A DNA stretch of 64,000 nt from Rhodobacteraceae bacterium M382 (GTDB taxonomy: Bacteria > Pseudomonadota > Alphaproteobacteria > Rhodobacterales > Rhodobacteraceae), in contig CP081098.1 in the NCBI GenBank assembly GCA_025141015.1, positions 3,540,501 through 3,604,500 of the forward strand, in the 5' to 3' direction. The position numbers and the translations under genes are program-made. A model generated the notes under the pieces. That model was given only the letters and a program-made list of their open reading frames with translations, had not been told where the DNA came from and did no database searches. This document shows positions 39,292-53,065 of the stretch, one piece after another; position 1 is the first letter of the stretch, and the number at the start of each line of letters is the position of its first letter.

Positions 39292-40752
39292 TCAAGACAC
39301 TGAAAACTGACCCATCATGCCCGCATCCTCATGTTCCAGAATATGACAATGATACATGTACGGCGCATGGTTCGGGGCTGGCTGGTCAAACCGCATCAAG
39401 AGTTCCGCCTGCCCGTCAATCAGCACTGTGTCCTTCCATCCCCGGTTTTGTGCGGCCGATGGTTGACCGTTCTCGCTCAGAACCTGAAATCGGGTGCCGT
39501 GAACGTGGAACGGGTGCATCATCATCGGCGCCGACACCTGCCAGAGTTCTGTCTGGCCGCGCTTGGCTGCGACATTGATATGGCTCATGTCAAACGGCTG
39601 TCCATTGATCGAAAAGCCGCCGCCGCGCCGCCCCATCATGCCGCCGCCCATTCCCATATCCAATGTAAACTGGCGTTGAACCGCGCCAGTCGGATCAAGG
39701 TCTGGCAGCGCCTCTCCTATACCCGTGGGCAAGGTGGCAATGCGCGGGATTAGCCCCGGATCAACCTCAAATTTCTGCACGTCGAACGATCCGCCACCGC
39801 CGCCCATCATGCCGCCCATCATGGGCGTGTTGGAAACCGAAGCGCTCAAAAGGCTGTCTGCGTCGGTGCCGGAAAAATCGACCAGAATCTCAATGCGCTC
39901 GCCAGGGGCCAATGTGATGTCTTTCAGCGCCAACGGGGCAGGCAACAAACCGGCATCAGTGGCAACCATGTGCAGTTCCCGGCCTGAGGCCATGGAAAAC
40001 CGGTAGACACGCGCATTTGACCCGTTCAACAGCCGAAGCCGCACGATCCCGGCAGGCACCACAGCCACGCTTCCGATCTGGCCGTTGACAACAACGGTGT
40101 CGCCCAGAAATCCCACCATCGATTCATGCATGCCACGCGAGTAGGTCATCCGGCCCCGGCGATCAAAGCGACGGTCCTGAACAACCAGTGTCAGGTCATC
40201 TGTGCCATAGGTGCTTGGCAGGCCGCGTTCGTCATCCCGCCCGTCGGTGATTTGCAGCACACCGGCCAGTCCTGCGTGAACCTGCTCGGCGGTTTGTTCA
40301 TGGATGTGGGAATGATACCAGGCCGTTGCCGATGGTTGCATGATCGGAAGTGTCACGCGCCATGTTTCGCCTGCCAACACCGGTTGGTGGGGGCCGCCAT
40401 CCACCTCGCCCGGGATCAACAGACCATGCCAATGGGTCGAGACCGGCCGGTTCAGGGCATTTTCAACGGTGGCCTCGGTTTCACCATGGGTCACCCGGAT
40501 CACAGGTCCCAGATATGCCTGATTGAAGCCGAAGGTATTGCTGGCCGATCTGTTCAGAAAGTTCGTTTCCCCCGCCTGCGCTCGCAGGCTGAACCGCCTG
40601 GATTTTGTCGCGTCCAGCAGCGGTGGCATCGACAGCCGCTGCGATGACGTCTGGGCAGATGCCGAACCCGGCAGAGAAAACGCAACCCCAGCTGCAGCCA
40701 TGCCTGCAAGACAGGTGCGCCGGTTCACCCTGCGGCCCTCACTGATTGCCAT
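39292..40752 (-). CDS. cueO: CueO-type multicopper oxidase
   Basis: 486 residues with a twin-arginine signal (VNRRTCLAGMAAAG). Copper motifs HWHGLLIPG, WYHSHIH, HPFHVHG and YHCHILEHEDAGMM are complete. Met/Gly-rich inserts (TPMMGGMMGGGGG; LDMGMGGGMMGRRGGG) near the type 1 site are the mark of CueO cuprous oxidases. Its start overlaps the copZ stop (TGATG), so it is expressed from the CueR-type promoter in front of copZ. Confidence 0.92.
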   Translation of the reverse strand: MAISEGRRVNRRTCLAGMAAAGVAFSLPGSASAQTSSQRLSMPPLLDATKSRRFSLRAQAGETNFLNRSASNTFGFNQAYLGPVIRVTHGETEATVENALNRPVSTHWHGLLIPGEVDGGPHQPVLAGETWRVTLPIMQPSATAWYHSHIHEQTAEQVHAGLAGVLQITDGRDDERGLPSTYGTDDLTLVVQDRRFDRRGRMTYSRGMHESMVGFLGDTVVVNGQIGSVAVVPAGIVRLRLLNGSNARVYRFSMASGRELHMVATDAGLLPAPLALKDITLAPGERIEILVDFSGTDADSLLSASVSNTPMMGGMMGGGGGSFDVQKFEVDPGLIPRIATLPTGIGEALPDLDPTGAVQRQFTLDMGMGGGMMGRRGGGFSINGQPFDMSHINVAAKRGQTELWQVSAPMMMHPFHVHGTRFQVLSENGQPSAAQNRGWKDTVLIDGQAELLMRFDQPAPNHAPYMYHCHILEHEDAGMMGQFSVS

Positions 40753-40949
40753 CAGATGAGTGTCGCTTCGTAACCGGCTTCCTTGATGGCGCCCAGTATC
40801 GCGTCATTGCCAAGAATGCTTTGGACCGCAACGCTTCGGTCTGACAGATCACACGATACCTCGGCCATTTGATCTGCGCCTTTAATTTCTTTTTCGATGG
40901 CAGCGGTGCAATGGCCGCAACTCATGTCCGGAACTGTGAATTTTGTCAT
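40752..40949 (-). CDS. copZ: CopZ-type copper chaperone
   Basis: A 65-residue HMA domain with the motif MSCGHC near the N-terminus (MTKFTVPDMSCGHC). The ATG at 40949 is chosen because AAAGGAG precedes it at proper spacing; the frame is open eight codons more. It carries Cu(I) in the cytosol, probably to CopA, whose divergent gene shares the intergenic region. First gene of the copZ-cueO operon. Confidence 0.93.
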   Translation of the reverse strand: MTKFTVPDMSCGHCTAAIEKEIKGADQMAEVSCDLSDRSVAVQSILGNDAILGAIKEAGYEATLI

Positions 40950-40970
40950 GTGGGTCTCCTTTGTCCTGAC

Positions 40971-41001
40971 CATCTGGGTCCTTCCAGCGCTGGAGGGTCA
41001 A
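40971..41001 (-). promoter_or_regulatory. CueR-type promoter of copZ-cueO
   Basis: On the minus strand TTGACC (41001-40996), a 19-base spacer with the strong dyad CCTCCAGCGCTGGAAGG, and CAGATG (40976-40971). Dyad and spacer fit CueR; the -10 is poor, which is common in promoters that need activator distortion. Confidence 0.7.
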
Positions 41002-41030
41002 GAGTGAAACCCGCAATTTGTGATTAGGTC

Positions 41031-41061
41031 TTGACCTTCCAGTAAGTGGAAGCCCTATGTA
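41031..41061 (+). promoter_or_regulatory. CueR-type promoter of copA-cueR
   Basis: TTGACC (41031-41036), a 19-base spacer containing CCTTCC-N6-GGAAG, and TATGTA (41056-41061). It has the best -10 of the four such sites in the window, 22 bases before the copA start. Confidence 0.8.
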
Positions 41062-41082
41062 AGAGGCGAAACCGATCTTGGG

Positions 41083-43602
41083 ATGAGTCGCATGGGCGTT
41101 GAAAATCAACTGAAACTGTCATTGCAGGGAATGTCCTGTGCGTCTTGTGTAGGGCGCGCCGAAAAAGCCCTGAAGGGAATGACCGGTGTAACGGATGCAT
41201 CCGTCAATCTTGCCTCGGAAACGGCGGTGGTGAAATTCTCGGGACTTGCAGATGCCCGGCAAACTCTGGCAACGCTTGATAAAGCAGGCTACCCGGCACG
41301 CACCGGATCCGTGACGATGCATGTGGACTCCATGTCATGTGCGTCCTGTGTCGGTCGGGTAGACAAGGCGCTGGCGGTTGTGTCCGGCGTGCTTGAGGTC
41401 AATGTGAATCTGGCCTCGGAAACGGCGACTGTTACCTTTCTTGAGGGACAGGTCAGTCCGGGGGATCTACTGCAGGCAGCGGCAGATGCCGGGTATCCGG
41501 CACGTTTGAAAGATGCGTCAGCGCCCGAGGACATGGGCGCGCGCAAAGCGGCAGAAGCGCAGAGCCTTGCGCGGCGGACATTGCTTGCAGCAGCATTGGC
41601 ATTGCCGGTCTTTGTGATGGAGATGGGGGGGCACGCGATCCCGGCATTTCATGACTGGATTCGCCACACGATTGGCCATGAAACAAGCTGGTTGATCCAG
41701 TTCGTTCTGACCACAATCGTTCTTATCGGGCCAGGGCGTCAGTTTTACCTTAAGGGGTTCCCTGCACTGATGCGGGGCGCGCCGGATATGAACAGCCTTG
41801 TGGCGGTGGGAACATCTGCGGCCTATGCGTTTTCGGTGATAGCAACGTTCTTCCCGACGCTGCTGCCACAAGGGACCCGCGCGGTCTATTACGAGGCCGC
41901 GGCGGTCATCGTCGTTCTGATCCTTCTGGGACGGTTCCTTGAGGCCCGCGCCAAAGGGCGTACCGGAGAGGCGATCCGCAAGCTGCTGGGGCTTCAGGCC
42001 AAGACCGCACATGTGCTGAGAAGTGACGAGATTGTTGAAATCGACGTGGATCAGATTGTGGTCGGTGACATTCTGTTGGCCCGTCCCGGCGAGCGCATCG
42101 CGGTAGATGGCGATGTCACGCAAGGCACCAGCTATGTCGATGAAAGCATGATAAGCGGGGAGCCCGTTCCTGTCGCCAAGGCTGGCGGAGACCCGGTAAC
42201 CGGTGGAACGGTAAACGGTGCCGGAAGCATCCGGTTTCAGGCCACCCGCGTGGGCGCGGATACAACATTGGCCCAGATCATCCGCATGGTCGAAGAGGCC
42301 CAGGGCGCCAAGCTGCCGATCCAGGGGTTGGTGGACAGGATCACCCTGTGGTTCGTGCCCGCCGTGATGGGGCTGGCCGCGCTGACCGTTGTGGTCTGGC
42401 TTGTGTTCGGACCGGACCCGGCATTGTCGTATGCGCTTATTGCCGGGGTTGCCGTCCTGATCATTGCCTGTCCCTGTGCCATGGGGCTGGCCACGCCGAC
42501 TTCGATCATGGTCGGAACCGGGCGGGCGGCCGAGATGGGCGTTTTGTTCCGCAAGGGCGATGCGCTGCAAAGCCTTCAGGCTGTCAACGTGGTCGCGCTG
42601 GACAAAACCGGCACCCTGACCGAAGGCCGCCCCGAACTGACCGATCTCAGCGTGGCTGATGGGTTTTCGCGCGACGAAGTCTTGCGCCTTGTGGCCGCCG
42701 TTGAACGCGACTCGGAACACCCCATCGCCGAGGCAATTGTCCGGGCAGCAGGAAACGAGGGAATTGCTTTGCCGGATATCGGCGACTTCGCGTCGATCAC
42801 CGGGTATGGGGTGTGCGCCCAAGTCGATGAACGATCAGTTCTGGTTGGCGCGGACCGACTGATGACCCGCGAAGGGATTGATCTGGAGACCCTGTATTCT
42901 GCGGGGGAGGCGTTGGGGGCTGAAGGCAAGACCCCGCTCTATGCCGCGGTGGACGGTCGGATTGCGGCTGTCATTGCGGTTTCAGACCCGGTCAAACCTA
43001 CAACCAAAATGGCGATCAAGGCTCTGCATGATCTTGGACTGAAAGTTGCCATGATCACCGGCGACAATCGCGCAACGGCGCAGGCAATTGCTGATGCAAT
43101 CGGCATTGACCACGTGGTCGCCGAAGTCCTGCCGGATGGCAAGGTCGCCGCCCTGAACGAACTGGCGCAGGGTGGCAAGAAGGTCGCCTTCGTCGGTGAC
43201 GGCATAAACGACGCGCCCGCCCTGGCCCATGCCGATGTCGGAATTGCCATTGGCACTGGCACCGATGTGGCTATCGAAGCGGCCGATGTTGTCTTGATGT
43301 CGGGTGACCTGCGTGGTGTTGTGAATGCGTTCGACGTCTCTGCACGCACGATGGCGAATATCCGTCAGAACCTGTTCTGGGCCTTTTCTTACAACTCAGC
43401 ACTGATCCCGGTCGCCGCAGGTGCGCTGTATCCGGCATTCGGGCTGTTGTTATCGCCCGTTCTGGCCGCCGGGGCCATGGCCCTGTCCAGCGTGTTTGTT
43501 CTGAGCAACGCGCTGCGATTGCGGATGGCGCAGCCAATAATGCCTGAGAAGGCTACCCAAAGTCCAGCCGGCTCAGAAATGCAACCGGCCCCCGCTGAAT
43601 AA
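41083..43602 (+). CDS. copA: CopA, Cu(I)-exporting P1B-1 ATPase
   Basis: 839 residues. Two N-terminal HMA domains each with GMSCASC or SMSCASC, then eight membrane helices. CPC metal site in [17 protein letters not shown], and [17 protein letters not shown]-terminal [18 protein letters not shown] and [16 protein letters not shown] give the Asn/Tyr and Met/Ser residues of the Cu(I) class. It is the second copper ATPase of the island and differs from the one at 27848 in having HMA domains. It takes Cu(I) from CopZ. The ATG at 41092 is an alternative start. cueR follows after 12 bases. Confidence 0.95.
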
Positions 43603-43614
43603 GGAGACAGAAGA

Positions 43615-44031
43615 ATGAACATCGGAGACGTATCGCGCTTGTCCGGGCTTCCGGCGAAAACCATTCGCTATTACGAGGAAATCGGCCTTGTCGATCCGCT
43701 GCGCAGTAGCAATGGCTATCGGAGTTTCCGCAAAAGCGACCTGCACAAACTTGCCTTTCTGGGGCGGGCCCGGTCCCTGGGTTTTTCCATTGACGATTGC
43801 CGCGACCTGCTGGCTCTTTACGATGACAGAACCCGTGCCAGCGCCGATGTCAAAGCGATCGCAAAAGAACATCTGCTACGAATTGACCAGAAATTGGCAG
43901 AACTGAATGAAATGCACGAAACGCTATCGCACCTGGTTAATGAGTGCGCCGGAGATCACCGCCCAGATTGCCCGATCTTGGCAGATTTGGCGGCCACATC
44001 AGAGAAAGATGCTACCGCTTTGGCAAGCTAG
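43615..44031 (+). CDS. cueR: CueR, copper-responsive MerR-family activator
   Basis: 138 residues. Winged helix (MNIGDVSRLSGLPAKTIRYYEEIGLV), a long dimer helix, and the metal loop ECAGDHRPDC: two Cys seven residues apart, as in CueR/HmrR. It should activate the four TTGACC-N19 promoters of this island. It is co-transcribed with copA, which gives positive feedback. Confidence 0.93.
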   Translation: MNIGDVSRLSGLPAKTIRYYEEIGLVDPLRSSNGYRSFRKSDLHKLAFLGRARSLGFSIDDCRDLLALYDDRTRASADVKAIAKEHLLRIDQKLAELNEMHETLSHLVNECAGDHRPDCPILADLAATSEKDATALAS

Positions 44032-46733: not shown

Positions 46734-49700
46734 CTACGGCAGCATCTCGATCACCAATTCCTGAGCGCTGATGCCCATCTCCGGGGCTTCAAAACTGAGG
46801 ATCATGTGCTGATGCAGCAAATCGATGCCCGGACCGGTGAAACCCAGGATCAGATCCTGCCAGGCCACATCGACGCCGGGGCCGGAGAACAGGATCGCCA
46901 ATTCCTGATCAGTGATCTGAACCTTGCCACCGATGAGAACCCGGTACTCGCGAAAGGCGCGATCCTCATATCCGTCCCGCACAGCACGTAGGCGGATGGC
47001 GGCCATCTCAACCCCGATTGGCGGTTGCGGATAGTCGGCATCGGTGAGGGTGAGCGAAGTTGCCTGTGCTGCATTGATCACGGCGGCCGCAGGCTCCAAC
47101 GTCGCACCTGTCGCTGTATCGACCCAGTGAATGCGGACCTCATAGGCAACCCCCGGTTCGGGTCCGATGTCGGGTCCGGTGTAGTCATCAAACACGCTGC
47201 TGGTCTGGGCCAGCCGGTCGCGATGCGCCCAGCTTAGCGCTGCTTCGGTGCCCGACAGCATCTGCACAAACAACCCATCGCCGCGGAAATTCCCCGGCGG
47301 CAGCGGTCGGATCGCCCGGCTGGCCAACACAACCTGATCCGCCGGGGCCTGCGCCAGTGGCAGGGTGCCAAAGCCAGTCTGAGGCAACATCTTCACCGCG
47401 ATGGTCTCCCCGGCGGCAAACTGGGTTGCGGTGGCATTGGCCATGTGCTGCCAGCAGATCACCGGCGTTCCCGCGAGATGGTTCATGGGAAGTGTATCAA
47501 GACATCCGCGCCCGACAGTGAGAGAGGTGGCGCTGATCCCATCGATGCGAACAAACTCGCCGCCGATGGCGGCCAGGGTTCCGGTGGTCAGGTCCTCAAG
47601 TCCGGTCCAGTCGCTAACGGCAAGCACCCGCTCGGTCGGATCGTCGGTGACATCAGCGGCCAAAACTGCCGTTGGCACAAACTCCACCGGCTCTTCCGGG
47701 GCGTATCCTGTTCCCGGATCGATCCAGACCTGCGTTGACAGCGCGTCCGATGACGGGCGCTCGCCAGAAGCAATCAGAACCCCGGTATCGGGATCCTCTG
47801 CAAGCAAGGTATCGGCCTGCGTATGCCCCAATTCCTGTACCAGCATCCAATACGGCGCTTCCTGCACAATGCGGCGCGACAGCGGTTGCGGCGCTGTAAT
47901 CAAGGGCACGGGATCACTGGTCTCGCCGCCAATCAGCGCGGTTTCCCCGAGTGAAAACACATCCTCAACGATGCGCAGGCGAACACCATTGGCGCGCCCG
48001 TCGCCGTGATCGATCTCAACCACCCGAACCACGAGCGCGTCGAGACCTTTGCGGTCACTGTCCAGAATAATGACATCGCCTGGATCAAGATCAGACCCGG
48101 CGCGTGACACAGTGATCTCGCCAGACAGCAACGGGGCCGACAATCCGCGCAGATCCCGTTCCGCCACGCGCACGGCGAGGCTTTCAAACCGGATGCCGGG
48201 ATAATCCACCGTCGTACTGATCACCTGACCCATCAGCTGTACCAGCGCCGTATCAGTCACACTGACCGAGCCGGTCTGATCGGTGCGCGCATCGGAAAAC
48301 TTCACCGTGACGCTGTTGATCTGATCAGCCGCCTCGCGTCGGCCGAGCTCACCCCAGTCGACAACGTTGCTTTCGTCAAAAATTGGCAGGGTCGCGGGAT
48401 CAAAATCATCGCGAATGAGGCGCAACTCCCAGCGACCGGAGCGGCGATCGACATAGAGATAGGCATCAATGTGGCTCAGAATGTCGGCGATGAAATCCTC
48501 GATGGTGGATTCTCGCTGCCAGAGCAGCGAAAGACCAAAACCCTCGGTGAAGAGCGTATCAGCCGCACCGTTGAAGCTGGCACCGATATCCGCATCGCCA
48601 TATCCCAGCCCCCAGGCGGAGTTGGTCAGGCATTCGCGGACGATATGGGCCGGATTCATGTCCGGGCCACGCCCGAAGGCAGCGCGTACCGAGGCGACCA
48701 GCGCGTCCGCGTCGCCCGCTGGCACCACCGGAACGCCGTCCACCGGCGTATTGTCCAATTGCGCCGTGGCGCTGATATCTGACAGGGCGATATTGAAAGC
48801 AAAGACATCGACAGCGGAAATACCGGCCAGCGTTGCTTTCGCCGTCTCCAGCGATGAAGCCGGACTTGGCGCACCATCCGTCACGAAGATCAGGACCCGG
48901 CGTTTGCTACCAGCGCCAGCAAAGAAGGCACTGGCCTGACTAACCGCCGCCCCGAAGTTGGTGCCAAAAGCGGTGGCGGTGGAAAGCCCATCGACCCAGG
49001 ACTTCAGCTCGCCGTAAGCGACTGCATCTGCGTTCCGTCGGGTAATGCTGCCGGTGATGGTGGCGTTGTAGGTGACGATCTCAATGTCATTCAGCGCATT
49101 GGCATTGTCACTGATCTCGCCGATCAGGGTCGAGACTGCGGCCATCTGGGCGGCCATACGGGCACCTGACATGGAGCCCGAGGTATCCATGGCGATGTAG
49201 ATCGCCGCATCGCCAATGCGCGCGGCGGCAATGATCTGGGCTTTTTCGGGGTACCATTGCTCCGTCCCGTCCTCAGCCGCAAGAACCCGGGTCAGCCGCA
49301 CCGCCCATGGTTTGAGGTAGGGGTTGAGCCCGAGATAGACCTGCCGCAACACCAGCGAGCAAAGTCCACGATAGCCCGGCACGTTTGCCCCGGCGCGGGC
49401 GGCAAGATAGTCGTTCTGGCCCTGGGAGGGCTCTCCCATCAGCACGTCGATGTCGCCGACAATACCACCTTCGCGGCTTTCCCCGCCAAACAAGTCCGGT
49501 TTGTTGATCCGGATCTGGTTAGTGACGGGAGCCTCAGCCTCGGGTTCTGGCGCAGGTGCTTCAACGGGATCGGCAGAGGTGAAGGTGACAGACTGGAGGG
49601 CAAAGGACACAGTCCGAGGATCGACCAGCAAGGTGGTCAGCCCGCCCTCGCCATCATTGGCGATAGAGCGCACAGTGACAATGAGGCTGGTGCCATCGGT

Positions 49701-50012
49701 CTGCAGTTCCAACTTCAGGGCTTGTCCAATGCTGAGACCTGTCGGCGCACCCGGACCCTGGATCATCACCATGGACCAAGTGCCTTTCTCGTCGGCAGGA
49801 AATCCCGAAACGCTGTTGAATGTCCCAAAGCTCTGAACGGCCCCAACGCCGGTACCAGCGACTGGTGCAGCCCCTTCTCCGATCGACCAAGCGGTTTTAT
49901 CATCAACGAGGATTTCCCGGATGGCATCGACCGGGCCATGACAGAGCGCCAGATGCGCGCCAAGCGAATAGCGATATCCAACCGTCTGGGTGCTTGAGGA
50001 CCGGCTACCCAT
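46734..50012 (-). CDS. Large phage tail-tip protein with inserted VWA domain
   Basis: 1092 residues. The N-terminal ~265 and the part after ~447 look like a host-specificity/tail-tip protein (CSLVLRQVYLGLNPYLKPW; IVRECLTNSAWGLGYGDADIG; later fibronectin-like and repeat domains). Between them, ~268-447, lies a von Willebrand A domain with a full MIDAS: DTSGS (Asp276, Ser278, Ser280), Thr351 and Asp379 in FVTDG. The C-terminal ~80 residues are short repeats (DVAWQDLILGF; DLLHQHMILSF; GISAQELVIEM). Inserted VWA domains are not a usual part of this protein. Confidence 0.85.
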   Translation of the reverse strand: MGSRSSSTQTVGYRYSLGAHLALCHGPVDAIREILVDDKTAWSIGEGAAPVAGTGVGAVQSFGTFNSVSGFPADEKGTWSMVMIQGPGAPTGLSIGQALKLELQTDGTSLIVTVRSIANDGEGGLTTLLVDPRTVSFALQSVTFTSADPVEAPAPEPEAEAPVTNQIRINKPDLFGGESREGGIVGDIDVLMGEPSQGQNDYLAARAGANVPGYRGLCSLVLRQVYLGLNPYLKPWAVRLTRVLAAEDGTEQWYPEKAQIIAAARIGDAAIYIAMDTSGSMSGARMAAQMAAVSTLIGEISDNANALNDIEIVTYNATITGSITRRNADAVAYGELKSWVDGLSTATAFGTNFGAAVSQASAFFAGAGSKRRVLIFVTDGAPSPASSLETAKATLAGISAVDVFAFNIALSDISATAQLDNTPVDGVPVVPAGDADALVASVRAAFGRGPDMNPAHIVRECLTNSAWGLGYGDADIGASFNGAADTLFTEGFGLSLLWQRESTIEDFIADILSHIDAYLYVDRRSGRWELRLIRDDFDPATLPIFDESNVVDWGELGRREAADQINSVTVKFSDARTDQTGSVSVTDTALVQLMGQVISTTVDYPGIRFESLAVRVAERDLRGLSAPLLSGEITVSRAGSDLDPGDVIILDSDRKGLDALVVRVVEIDHGDGRANGVRLRIVEDVFSLGETALIGGETSDPVPLITAPQPLSRRIVQEAPYWMLVQELGHTQADTLLAEDPDTGVLIASGERPSSDALSTQVWIDPGTGYAPEEPVEFVPTAVLAADVTDDPTERVLAVSDWTGLEDLTTGTLAAIGGEFVRIDGISATSLTVGRGCLDTLPMNHLAGTPVICWQHMANATATQFAAGETIAVKMLPQTGFGTLPLAQAPADQVVLASRAIRPLPPGNFRGDGLFVQMLSGTEAALSWAHRDRLAQTSSVFDDYTGPDIGPEPGVAYEVRIHWVDTATGATLEPAAAVINAAQATSLTLTDADYPQPPIGVEMAAIRLRAVRDGYEDRAFREYRVLIGGKVQITDQELAILFSGPGVDVAWQDLILGFTGPGIDLLHQHMILSFEAPEMGISAQELVIEMLP

Positions 50013-50277
50013 CGCAACTGTCCTCTCTTGCCATGCGGGCCTCTCTAGCCATACGTGCCCGGGCTTGAGCGATCACCCGCATTGCCAGCGCATCGCCTGT
50101 GGTTTCCAGCGTCTCTGCTTCGATGCCATTGGCGAGAAAATCCTGCCAGCTGAACCCGTGCCGGGCCAGCCAGGGTCGTGCGCCCTGAAAACAGAGCTTT
50201 GCGGCGCGCAGGTCCTGAACAGTCACGATGGTCTTTGGCTCTGTGATCTTCGGTGTTGTGGCATCCTGTTCGTTCAC
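50005..50277 (-). CDS. Small phage protein of unknown function
   Basis: 90 residues with LCFQGARPWLARHGFSWQDFLANGI and an Arg/Ala/Met-rich C-terminal helix. It overlaps the start of the large tip protein by 8 bases and the previous stop by 4. Its position suits a tip-assembly factor. No family named. Confidence 0.65.
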   Translation of the reverse strand: MNEQDATTPKITEPKTIVTVQDLRAAKLCFQGARPWLARHGFSWQDFLANGIEAETLETTGDALAMRVIAQARARMAREARMAREDSCDG

Positions 50278-50522
50278 TTCTTGCCTCCGGATTTGCGGAT
50301 CGGATCGACCTTGAGATCACCTGCCCAGACCACGTTTGGCCCGCGCAGCAGCACGGTGCCGAACACCACCGGGATGGGGCGGCCTTCCTCGGCGGTGGGC
50401 AGGTTGAAATCATCCAGTCCTGCCGCTTTTGGTGGTGTGGTCTTCGGCTTTGGGGACAGCGCATAGGAGATCGCCGTCAGCACCAGGCTGACGACGATCT
50501 GGACGATGAAATTCCAGACCAT
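50274..50522 (-). CDS. Small phage tail protein with N-terminal hydrophobic helix
   Basis: 82 residues: a hydrophobic helix (FIVQIVVSLVLTAISYAL), then GLDDFNLPTAEEGRPIPVVFGT, a motif that in larger phages opens the tail-tip protein (tail assembly I/J region). Here it is a separate gene, coupled to the next by ATGA. Confidence 0.7.
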   Translation of the reverse strand: MVWNFIVQIVVSLVLTAISYALSPKPKTTPPKAAGLDDFNLPTAEEGRPIPVVFGTVLLRGPNVVWAGDLKVDPIRKSGGKK

Positions 50523-50534
50523 AAGAAATGTGCC

Positions 50535-51383
50535 TCAGATTATGCTGGAGCCGCCGAAGGGATTGCGGCCCGGGATGTCGGGGAAACCGCCGAAGTTCAG
50601 CAGGTTGGCGAATTTGGCATCACAGGTGTCGCGACGCAGATCGCAGCCGGGTGCGATATCGATGGCCGGGGTGATGATTGGATCGTCAATCGCGGCCTCA
50701 AGATCCGGCATGCGCCCCGCAAGTGTGAGGGTAGTGCCCGTGTGCCCGGTGATGAACCCCAGAAGACCGCTGTGGCGCAGCACGCCACCGCGATACCAGC
50801 CATTTGGTTGGGATGCGGCCTCGGGAACAGTGACCTGCAATCCGGCCCGGGAGGTGGCTGTGCCTGCAACAAAGAAGGTCTCGATGTCCAGCCGACAGCC
50901 CCCGGCATAGAGCGCATGGCGACACAGGCGCTGGTACTTGGCGCGTACGCCCTCGCGGCGCATGGCCGTAAACAGGGATTCGCAACGCAGGATGATACGT
51001 GGACCTTCGGTGCGGGCTGACACCACCCGGCCTTTCCAGTGCGCCACAACTTCCATGGGCACCTGTTCGTGGCCGCGAAAGATCGTCAGCGTGGTGACTG
51101 CCCGGCTGCGGGGGCCAAGATAACGGCGCGCGAAGGGATCGGAGATCGGGAAGGTAAGGCTCAGATCAACCCGGCGCGGATCGCTGCTTTGCACGACGGG
51201 ACCGTGTGACAGCGCAGATGCTGTCCATACTGTCTCGCTTAGCTCCCCGGCAATCGCACCCACCGGAGCAACCCAGTCAGTCGCCCGGCTGCTGAACCGC
51301 CACAGAGCTGACCCTTCGGCGAAAAGGTAGAGGAAATACGGCCGACCCTCGGCGGTCGAGGTCTCCAACTGATCATAGCTCAT
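50535..51383 (-). CDS. BR0599-family phage tail protein
   Basis: 282 residues. N-terminal beta domain followed by CRHALYAGGCRLDIETFFVAG and CDAKFANLLNFGGFPDIPGRNPF at the C-terminus; these Cys-containing motifs are typical of the BR0599/DUF2163 group of tail-hub proteins. It overlaps the preceding VWA-containing gene by four bases. Confidence 0.82.
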   Translation of the reverse strand: MSYDQLETSTAEGRPYFLYLFAEGSALWRFSSRATDWVAPVGAIAGELSETVWTASALSHGPVVQSSDPRRVDLSLTFPISDPFARRYLGPRSRAVTTLTIFRGHEQVPMEVVAHWKGRVVSARTEGPRIILRCESLFTAMRREGVRAKYQRLCRHALYAGGCRLDIETFFVAGTATSRAGLQVTVPEAASQPNGWYRGGVLRHSGLLGFITGHTGTTLTLAGRMPDLEAAIDDPIITPAIDIAPGCDLRRDTCDAKFANLLNFGGFPDIPGRNPFGGSSII

Positions 51384-53065
51384 ACAAGCACCTCGATCAC
51401 GGTGGCGCTCATCGCGGTTCGGGTTGCGCTGTGCTCCAACTCAATCCGGTCGGTATCGAGGCGCATCTTTGTCAGAACATGCACCGGGGTGTCAGCCGGG
51501 ATATCAACACCCGGCGGCACCATGGTGAGCCGATGCCCCAGTGCCTCAAAGCTGGCCGCAGTGACCTGCCGGAATATTCCGCCGGTGGGCATATCGATCA
51601 TGACGTGACGATTGATCCAGGTCGCGAGGTCGAATGTCGGGGCGACGATCAGAAAATCATCATCCGCCAAAACGTCGGCCTGCAGCACCAGTTCCCGGCC
51701 CCATGTGGGCAGCCAGAAACTCCGTTGCCGTCCGCACAATGAATGCAACCATCGCCGCCGCGACCAAGCAATCTGTCGACCATAATCCAAAAACGTGAGT
51801 GTCGAACGGCGCTGCAGATAGGCGCGCGTGGGCTCGATGACAATCGGTCCAAAACCGTTGTCGATCGTCTCGATAGTCTGAGCGATGGTGTCGCGCAGCG
51901 GCTGGCGCAGCACAGTTGGATCGATCAGCACATCGCGCCCGAGATAAATGGGCAGACCGGTGAACGCTCTGCGCAAGGATGAGAGCAGCGTGTCTATGTC
52001 CCCTGGTGCGATGACGGGCACGCCATCCTCCGGCGTGTTGTCCAGCAGGGCGGTGAAGCTGGTGTCGGTAAGGCCGATGTTGAAGCCAAACACTTCGACG
52101 TCGGAAATGCTGCCAAGCGTTGTTATGGCCGGGTTCACCGAAGCAGCCGGATAGGGCTCGCCGTCGGTGAGGAACAGGATAACCCGCCGTTTGGCACCCG
52201 CACCGGCAAAGAAGGCCTCAGCCTCGCTCACCGCCACCCCGAAATCCGTCCCGCCACCCAGAGCACCCTGCGCGGTCAGCCAGTTAGCGATGTCCGCAAA
52301 ATCCGCCGTATCCGCATCGCGGCGCAGGATCATATCCCCGACTGCCCCGTGCCAGGTCAGGATGCAGATATCGTTCCGGACCGCGGGTGGTACGGTCAAG
52401 CCGAGGTCGGCAATCAGGGCCTGCACGGCGGCAATGGCTCCAGTCATCGCAGCACCCGACATTGAATATGAGTTGTCGATGGCGATATAAATCGCCGCAC
52501 CGGAAATCCCCGACAAATCGGCGCTATCAAGCAGGTGGAAACTGGCGGTGACAATGCCCTGACCCTGACGGCGGCGTTCGATCTCCACCGGCGCAGTCAG
52601 AACTGCCCGGCGCACCGGTGCCACGATGGCATGGGTCAGGTTGACCCCGACTGGTGCAACAAGTTCCAGACGATCCGAGAATACCTGCGCTACTTCCACC
52701 AGATAAGTCTCGCCACCATCGCTTGCCAGTGCCGCAAACCCCGGGCCACGGTAATCGGCATCGCGGGTAACCATCGGAATTGTCGTGTCCGTTTCCAGCA
52801 CGGTGATCCCCGGCGAGGTTGCCATGGCCCAGAGCGGCACCAGCCATTCATCAGCAAATCCCGACCGTGCCAGTTCCGCCGCCCTTGCCATCCCATCTGC
52901 GCCCAGCAGATGGCGACAGGTCAGTGTCTCGCGCGGTGTGGGGCGCAGAGCGATGCGCTGCTCTCCCTCCCGGCTGGCAAGAACGTCCGTGCGCCATTCC
53001 AGAACTTCACTGCCCGGCTGGCGCGCCGGGAAGGACCAGAGTGTTGGAGCGGGGTCAGGCAGCAA
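51380..53065 (-). CDS. Phage tail protein with inserted VWA domain
   Basis: 561 residues. An N-terminal ~185 residues and C-terminal ~190 residues look like a tail-hub protein of the DUF-type found between tape measure and BR0599 genes. The middle (~190-368) is a VWA domain with full MIDAS: DNSYS (Asp197, Ser199, Ser201), Thr273 and Asp301 in FLTDG. It resembles the VWA of the 1092-residue protein throughout (AIYIA-D-S-SMSG; FFAGAGAKRRV; DNTPEDGVPV). It overlaps the tape-measure stop by 11 bases. Confidence 0.85.
   Translation of the reverse strand: MLPDPAPTLWSFPARQPGSEVLEWRTDVLASREGEQRIALRPTPRETLTCRHLLGADGMARAAELARSGFADEWLVPLWAMATSPGITVLETDTTIPMVTRDADYRGPGFAALASDGGETYLVEVAQVFSDRLELVAPVGVNLTHAIVAPVRRAVLTAPVEIERRRQGQGIVTASFHLLDSADLSGISGAAIYIAIDNSYSMSGAAMTGAIAAVQALIADLGLTVPPAVRNDICILTWHGAVGDMILRRDADTADFADIANWLTAQGALGGGTDFGVAVSEAEAFFAGAGAKRRVILFLTDGEPYPAASVNPAITTLGSISDVEVFGFNIGLTDTSFTALLDNTPEDGVPVIAPGDIDTLLSSLRRAFTGLPIYLGRDVLIDPTVLRQPLRDTIAQTIETIDNGFGPIVIEPTRAYLQRRSTLTFLDYGRQIAWSRRRWLHSLCGRQRSFWLPTWGRELVLQADVLADDDFLIVAPTFDLATWINRHVMIDMPTGGIFRQVTAASFEALGHRLTMVPPGVDIPADTPVHVLTKMRLDTDRIELEHSATRTAMSATVIEVLV

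Follow-up and report, generated by a model that had tools for sequence, protein, structure and literature searches.

What a von Willebrand factor type A (VWA) domain might contribute to the tail tip of a phage, and why one tip should carry two of them, is the question raised by a prophage of Rhodobacteraceae bacterium M382, the genome of which is a 5.17-Mb assembly of four contigs. The window analyzed here, a stretch of 64,000 nucleotides (C1:3540501-3604500), harbors on its minus strand the tail genes of this prophage, with the tape-measure and tail-tip genes located after those of the tail tube, capsid, protease, and portal. A sequence-only reading of the window, made without database searches, had reported that two of the tail-tip proteins each contain a VWA domain of approximately 180 residues with a complete metal ion-dependent adhesion site (MIDAS), and the open reading frames, Pfam matches, and individual residues bear this out. 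The present analysis shows that members of a single VWA family are found in three neighboring core proteins of the siphophage baseplate, namely, the hub, the distal tail (Dit) protein, and a BR0599-like protein, and that the carrier changes while the residues of the metal site are kept.

Both domains of the window score above the curated Pfam cut-off (hub, PF00092, E = 3.5e-8, 34.3 bits; Dit, PF13519, E = 1.1e-6, and PF00092, E = 9.6e-6), and the MIDAS is complete in each, being formed by D276-x-S278-x-S280, T351, and D379 in the hub and by D197-x-S199-x-S201, T273, and D301 in Dit. The claim that the two domains are alike from end to end, and the proteins around them are not, also holds: the domains share 51% identity over 183 residues (145 bits, E = 1e-40), and the second-best local alignment between the two proteins reaches only 21.9 bits, which leaves the VWA domain as their sole shared part. 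The 1092-residue carrier is, as judged by its sequence matches, a baseplate hub of the gpJ-like Phage-tail_3 family, and it aligns to the solved hubs of phage Chi (PDB 8vjh_A, E = 3.6e-99) and JBD30 (8rk3_o, E = 5.2e-80). The 561-residue carrier is a Dit protein by its predicted fold, since its AlphaFold2 model (predicted local distance difference test [pLDDT], 81.9) aligns to the Dit proteins of JBD30 (8rk3_D) and Chi (8vjh_B) with a Z score of 25.9 over 341 residues each. Its sequence matches the same proteins (8rk3_U, E = 4.3e-6; 8vjh_B, E = 0.0026), and its gene sits between that of the tape measure and those of the BR0599-family protein and hub.

The structure prediction that the sequence-only reading had called for, in search of an insertion at a surface loop, places a VWA fold at residues 188 to 369 of the Dit model, between the two Dit halves (VIA-align against 4fx5: Z, 21.5; 169 aligned residues; root mean square deviation, 2.0). 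In the VIA-align comparison, the rows beyond the two Dit proteins were VWA domains, and other parts of the model were thus barely tested; a Foldseek search likewise gave, among the 50 rows seen, Dit first and then VWA-bearing chains. The hub model is poor overall (pLDDT, 60.6), the mean pLDDT of its VWA part (residues 271 to 420) being 86 to 94. The tail VWA domains are further marked by a motif of their own, LDNTPxDGVPVV, before the last helix, and generic VWA domains sampled from the bacterial class in question mostly fall outside them in the VWA tree: 16 of the 19 do so, whereas the other three are long branched and lie at the unresolved base of the tail VWA domains (the generic set forms one side of the tree with support of 77/52 and in 80% of bootstrap trees). 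When VWA domains were sought across the class, 18 of 385 genomes gave a match (no more than eight candidates scored in each), the best E value outside the genome of the window being 1.4e-15 and the others weaker, and none of their short loci showed a tail-tip domain.

The positions that the domain occupies in its two carriers can be defined by comparison with VWA-less relatives. The alignment of the hub to JBD30 stops at residue 142 and restarts at 145, that to Chi stops at 143 and restarts at 160, and neither phage has a VWA domain at this site; the spacing from the tryptophan of WYPEK to MNPAHI is 11 residues in Ab18 versus 199 in the window. In Dit, the site is the linker which joins the two halves, these being equivalent to the similar domains III and IV of JBD30 Dit (residues 175 to 356 and 357 to 567, with decorations, according to the excerpts of PMC11445458 on which we draw; excerpts likewise underlie the other literature cited here). 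The Dit model aligns to JBD30 residues 172 to 563, and the window Dit starts where domain III of JBD30 starts. Most Dit proteins of VWA-less relatives have approximately 380 to 400 residues and run uninterrupted through the linker. The hub VWA site has the look of a slot into which different domains can be exchanged. Sphingomonas phage Kharn (L370), which has neither VWA nor whole fiber genes, carries a different insert of approximately 115 residues at this site (hub residues ~154 to 265), with no Pfam match. A second extra stretch of approximately 120 residues, modeled with beta strands, is present at hub residues ~44 to 163 of the window and is missing at that place in JBD30 and Chi (query 43 to 164-166 versus chain 41-42 to 47-50).

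To what extent the arrangement is shared was assessed among loci from five IMG/VR scans (at most the best 80 matches each), named GTDB genomes, further relatives (the 14 of 295 family genomes and 12 of 341 order genomes with a Dit or VWA match, four candidates being scored per genome), and 22 phage records. Domains were called with profiles built for the survey, and loci with identical Dit or hub ends were merged, yielding 191 clusters, of which 89 without all three genes visible were set aside. Among the remaining 102 tail tips, VWA was present in the hub only in 78, in hub and Dit in 2, in Dit only in 7, in hub and BR0599 protein in 6, and in none of the three in 9, proportions which describe the near clade rather than phages at large, because the IMG/VR set comprises the sequences closest to the window proteins or to an alignment led by a near relative. 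The two hub-plus-Dit tips are the window and L176, which lies on the same contig as L012; L005 and L006 also have VWA in both proteins and were counted as partial because the hub is cut or the Dit gene frameshifted.

Outside the 22 phage records, each relative in which Dit, BR0599 protein, and hub were all seen has VWA in the hub or in Dit. A Dit VWA accompanies a VWA-less hub in Ruegeria sp. PrR005, Seohaeicola saemankumensis DP4N-5, Alexandriicola marinus LZ-14, and the metagenome-assembled genome (MAG) WY4.bin28, both carriers have it in Wenxinia marina DSM 24838, and the remaining named-GTDB loci with a visible hub have VWA in the hub and none in Dit. Among phage isolates, the Dit-only state is represented by the near-identical Titanviruses RcTitan, RcSpartan, and RcHartney, three of the seven Dit-only tips; the hub-plus-BR0599 state is represented by Bordetella FP1, Pseudomonas PaMx28, Xanthomonas Mallos, Variovorax V45iii and BAPIC_0004, and Stenotrophomonas QH3, and the hub-only state by Xanthomonas Elanor, Erythrobacter R6L and ZS04, and Stenotrophomonas Bhz59. 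The BR0599-family protein of the window prophage is thus a VWA carrier in other phages and is itself without the domain; the two parts are also joined in phrog_15205, the first part of which matches VWA and the second the window BR0599-family protein. Some far relatives are missed by Pfam, the RcSpartan Dit scoring 24.5 bits against a cut-off of 27 (VWA_2) and the FP1 BR0599 fusion giving no VWA match, and for these two the VWA calls rest on iterated profiles and tblastn.

The hub VWA is, therefore, the usual state among these relatives and the Dit copy the extra one. The sequence-only reading had regarded VWA domains as normally absent from phage tail hubs, which is correct for the wider circle of hub relatives (the hub protein has matches in 757 of 50,697 phage records, and VWA was found in at least 25 records by the union of three VWA queries and one Dit query). 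Within the near clade, by contrast, the hub VWA is a family trait by the very comparison that the same reading had named as its refutation, and only the Dit copy is unusual. The assumption that the hub VWA is always kept was in turn overturned by the Dit-only phages.

Constraint on the domain is strong. Every one of the 142 distinct tail VWA sequences of at least 150 residues within a recognized hub, Dit, or BR0599 frame (122 hub, 14 Dit, and 6 BR0599 fused) retains all five MIDAS residues, although copies decayed past recognition would be missed, as all 14 rows of the search profile possess the MIDAS. The DNTPxDG segment comes close to this constancy, a few Dit and hub sequences departing from it. 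Comparison of the window Dit VWA with four relatives gave 0.065 to 0.086 nonsynonymous (dN) and 0.61 to 0.88 synonymous (dS) substitutions per site, i.e., a dN/dS ratio of approximately 0.1. Such values, together with the MIDAS count and the finding that relatives with all three genes visible, the phage records aside, never lack the domain altogether, make it highly improbable that the domain is a functionless duplicated passenger tolerated at two permissive loops, even if the hub site accepts another insert in Kharn and the domain can be missing from either carrier.

The sequence-only reading had further suggested that one domain was copied into two neighboring genes. What stands of this is that members of one family have repeatedly been placed in adjacent tail-tip genes; what does not stand is a fresh duplication inside the window phage, which was rejected because the Dit copy belongs to an older clade common to other phages. 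The VWA tree unites the Dit copies of the window, the Ruegeria/Seohaeicola group, and their relatives in one clade (99/95), which groups with hub VWA domains of prophage relatives (98/96, 33 rows); the Wenxinia-type Dit VWA (L012) is placed with hub VWA domains (99/96), and the Titanvirus Dit VWA forms a third, far branch. One origin of all Dit VWA domains was rejected by the approximately unbiased (AU) test (P = 0.0135), with at least three changes forced on the VWA tree, the test groups having been named after a tree was seen and the Titanvirus branch being long. Copying in an ancestor of the clade to which the window belongs is compatible with the same test (AU P = 0.17), though it is not the best tree.

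In the hub tree, three VWA-less hubs of prophage relatives, which keep GPDMNPAHI right after the site, share a clade (100/99) with the hubs of the window, L005, and L006, and this clade is nested among hubs that bear VWA. While the VWA tree (99/95) and hub tree (100/99) join the window and Ruegeria/Seohaeicola groups, the Dit backbone tree, computed with VWA removed, holds them apart (open fork; four changes, three forced), a conflict for which recombination and weak signal are the only explanations that we can offer. A 34-row tip-core tree gives nine changes of carrier pattern versus two changes in VWA presence; such counts cannot separate gain from loss. Our tentative reading of this history is that the hub VWA came first, that a Dit copy was gained and the hub copy then lost in some lineages, and that the window represents the two-copy stage. 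As sister prophages possess the Dit copy only, the domain would in effect have been handed over from hub to Dit.

A possible clue to function lies in the distribution of lateral fibers. The three gp47/gp48 fibers of JBD30, by which type IV pili are bound, are docked on Dit and on the upper baseplate protein gp50, and domain I of Dit wraps them (PMC11445458, in part). The Ab18 proteins gp65 and gp66, encoded between tape measure and Dit, match the JBD30 fiber proteins in 8rk3 (E = 5.7e-24 and 6.2e-15), and gp65 has a match in 407 phage records. Eight of the nine VWA-less tips have these lateral fibers (homologues full length in seven and partial in Bhz54) and one is without fibers. Whole gp65/gp66 homologues were found in none of 13 VWA isolates and none of five VWA host genomes when entire records were searched, nor did gp65/gp66 match the genome of the window at E values up to 0.001. 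All eight fiber phages possess a Dit N-terminal extension of approximately 170 residues and have 2.2 to 2.6 kb between tape measure and Dit, as opposed to frames which touch or overlap in VWA tips (at most 4 bases apart in the tips with both genes visible). In the window prophage, the tape-measure gene end overlaps the Dit gene start, leaving no room for lateral-fiber genes between them, and neither gp47/gp48 homologues beside Dit nor the fiber-wrapping Dit arm described for JBD30 was found. Pseudomonas, Xanthomonas, Stenotrophomonas, and Variovorax are each hosts to both kinds of phage, and PaMx28 (VWA) and phiH1 (fibers) are both filed under Pamexvirus. The type IV pilus is also used by AXL1 (PMC9206674, in part), the gp65 homologue of which is full length (35.4% identity). 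Erythrobacter phages R6L (L090) and ZS04 (L365) show a long Dit N-terminal extension, which the fiber-phage extension profile does not match, and no adjacent fiber genes.

We propose that the VWA domain is a metal-dependent adhesion module of the baseplate core which stands in for lateral fibers, a reading to which we assign a probability of roughly 0.45. Ligand binding through a metal is common among VWA domains of this kind; as in integrin I domains, a carboxylate or hydroxyl supplied by the ligand completes the coordination of the MIDAS metal. The domains would be positioned outside the trimeric baseplate core, would bind the host surface via the MIDAS metal, and would act as the adsorption device where pilus-gripping lateral fibers of the JBD30 type are missing. 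This proposal is based on the intact MIDAS, on the common mode of binding, on the presence of VWA where fibers are not, and on the nature of the carriers, two of which hold the fibers in JBD30 while the third is the hub beneath them. With three copies of each core protein, as in JBD30, any carrier could display three VWA domains, which would account for a changing carrier and a constant domain. More tentatively, the domain may be a portable, carrier-independent adhesion (or trigger) module, handed between tip-core subunits and sometimes present in two, which provides an integrin-like host grip in place of lateral fibers.

Several observations weigh against an adhesive role. The hub model is too poor to place its VWA domain or to show it as exposed. 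The VWA/fiber contrast amounts to one switch on the 34-row core tree, the fiber phages being one clade, and to two independent pairs, in one of which the fiber trait is the same within the pair; the contrast is, therefore, not statistically established, and was discarded as a statistical law. The VWA-less phages, moreover, were chosen from Dit and hub matches and not randomly. Kharn contains a 44-residue gp65-like stretch, and FP1, which has VWA, contains short gp65-like stretches in two genes downstream of the hub (L089, 11360 to 12058 and 12067 to 12744) as well as a 63-residue match with stops; these two genes may correspond to the F5/8-type tail proteins named for its congener LK3 (PMC8471281, in part). 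For LK3, the same excerpts indicate that pili were inferred by the authors from likeness to YuA, with the F5/8 (discoidin) tail proteins as the other possible binder, and the portions of the literature examined establish no receptor for a VWA phage. The best counterargument is that the domain appears too conserved for a receptor binder. Receptor-binding parts usually diversify, and yet the dN/dS ratio of the Dit VWA is no higher than that of the equally constrained remainder of Dit, and LDNTPxDGVPVV is kept, with few exceptions, across very different hosts, which fits a conserved partner as well.

Two rivals stay alive on account of this conservation. The main one, which we regard as unlikely though deserving serious attention, is an internal clamp or trigger, in which the MIDAS would grip an acidic residue of another tip protein, tie Dit, upper baseplate protein, and hub together, and release on contact so that the tip opens. 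The strong constraint and the conservation of the motif across hosts are as expected of such a device, all three carriers touch one another in JBD30, and a metal-sulfur site may already stabilize assembly in JBD30 gp50 (PMC11445458, in part). However, VWA-less relatives of the JBD30, Chi, and Ab18 types are built from the same core proteins, and a carrier which shifts from hub to Dit to BR0599 protein is hard to fit to a fixed clamp geometry. Less probable again is a docking adapter which holds a phage receptor-binding protein or fiber on the baseplate in place of the fiber-holding Dit arm of JBD30. A conserved phage partner would account for the conservation, domain I of JBD30 Dit does wrap fibers (PMC11445458, in part), and VWA tips are without the Dit extension of the fiber phages, except that R6L and ZS04 have a long one, albeit unmatched by the fiber-phage profile; no common adhesin gene accompanying VWA was identified, no systematic search having been made.

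The features of the tail-tip region are collected in Table 1. The BR0599-family proteins share four cysteines, invariant in 11 of 11 rows (C154, C163, C247, and C254 in the window), which resemble the putative metal-binding cysteines of JBD30 gp50. Beside the prophage end, at 39292 to 44031, lie apparent metal-handling genes (multicopper oxidase-like, heavy-metal P-type ATPase-like, and MerR-like), named from their translations alone. Among the surveyed loci, L006, L007, L028, L036, L037, L046, L051, L334, and L343 contain frameshifts or in-frame stops in tail genes (Dit, tape measure, BR0599, or hub), and some copies may, therefore, be decayed or misassembled. Such tail genes in MAGs labeled Geminicoccaceae, Peregrinibacteria, and Burkholderiaceae (L326, L331, and L340) are perhaps binning errors, and the baseplate labels at L367, L369, L372, and H106 are doubtful ("FAD/FMN-containing dehydrogenase" on BR0599 proteins and "endo-beta-N-acetylglucosaminidase F2" on a fiber protein).

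Table 1. Tail-tip genes and domains of the prophage (window coordinates)
Feature	Position	Strand	Remarks
Baseplate hub protein (predicted), 1092 aa, Phage-tail_3 family	46734..50012	-	ATG start; Pfam PF13550, E 8e-11
VWA domain of hub, residues 267-446	48675..49214	-	Between WYPEK..I and GPDMNPAHI
Small tail-tip protein, 90 aa	50005..50277	-	phrog_1196
Small tail-tip protein, 82 aa	50274..50522	-	phrog_1180
BR0599-family protein, 282 aa	50535..51383	-	Pfam PF09356, E 1.3e-13; counterpart of JBD30 upper baseplate protein gp50
Distal tail (Dit) protein (predicted), 561 aa	51380..53065	-	TTG start; directly after tape-measure gene
VWA domain of Dit, residues 189-368	51962..52501	-	Between the two Dit halves
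Tape-measure protein, 832 aa	53055..55553	-	phrog_8462, E 3.5e-194

With respect to known systems, JBD30 (8rk3; gp49, gp50, and gp53) and Chi (8vjh) share the core of Dit, upper baseplate protein, and hub with the window prophage. VWA and integrin I-type domains (4fx5, ANTXR2, and the Aeromonas hydrophila adhesin 9das) possess the same fold (Z, ~20 to 21) and a full MIDAS, from which the tail VWA domains differ in being embedded in phage baseplate proteins and in their LDNTPxDGVPVV motif. Viral VWA proteins with a proposed or reported role in virion assembly are the MoxR-vWA chaperone pairs of jumbo phages and an archaeal two-tailed virus (PMC7824862, in part); in those the VWA is a separate protein paired with an AAA+ ATPase, whereas the tail VWA is inserted in structural proteins. 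The prophage does not follow that scheme, and no AAA+ partner was detected among the 10 + 10 phage proteins scanned with Pfam and PHROGs at E values up to 0.1. Databases already contain pieces of the present finding, as phrog_15205 holds VWA and BR0599 parts in one profile, but PHROG 15205 (tail assembly protein) and 1101 (tail protein) give the function only as "tail" and do not reveal the change of carrier; in GenBank, the feature under the VWA match in MW2 is labeled "von Willebrand factor type A." In the portions of the open-licence literature consulted, without supplements, we found no account of VWA in a siphophage hub or Dit, of a change of carrier, or of a relation to fibers. The word "Willebrand" is absent from the available main text of PMC11946847, PMC8601537, PMC6469090, PMC8471281, and PMC9206674, which treat relatives, and the excerpts of PMC10892097 do not present VWA proteins as tail-tip proteins.

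Adsorption of tailed phages is normally ascribed to dedicated fibers or spikes. If a VWA domain on any of three core subunits does replace fibers, host range could be read from sequence in a new way, and the natural series of hub only, hub plus Dit, Dit only, and hub plus BR0599 protein would serve for asking how one baseplate subunit assumes the role of another. As the family has cultured members (RcTitan, RcSpartan, and RcHartney on Rhodobacter capsulatus, and Erythrobacter phages R6L and ZS04), the question is testable.

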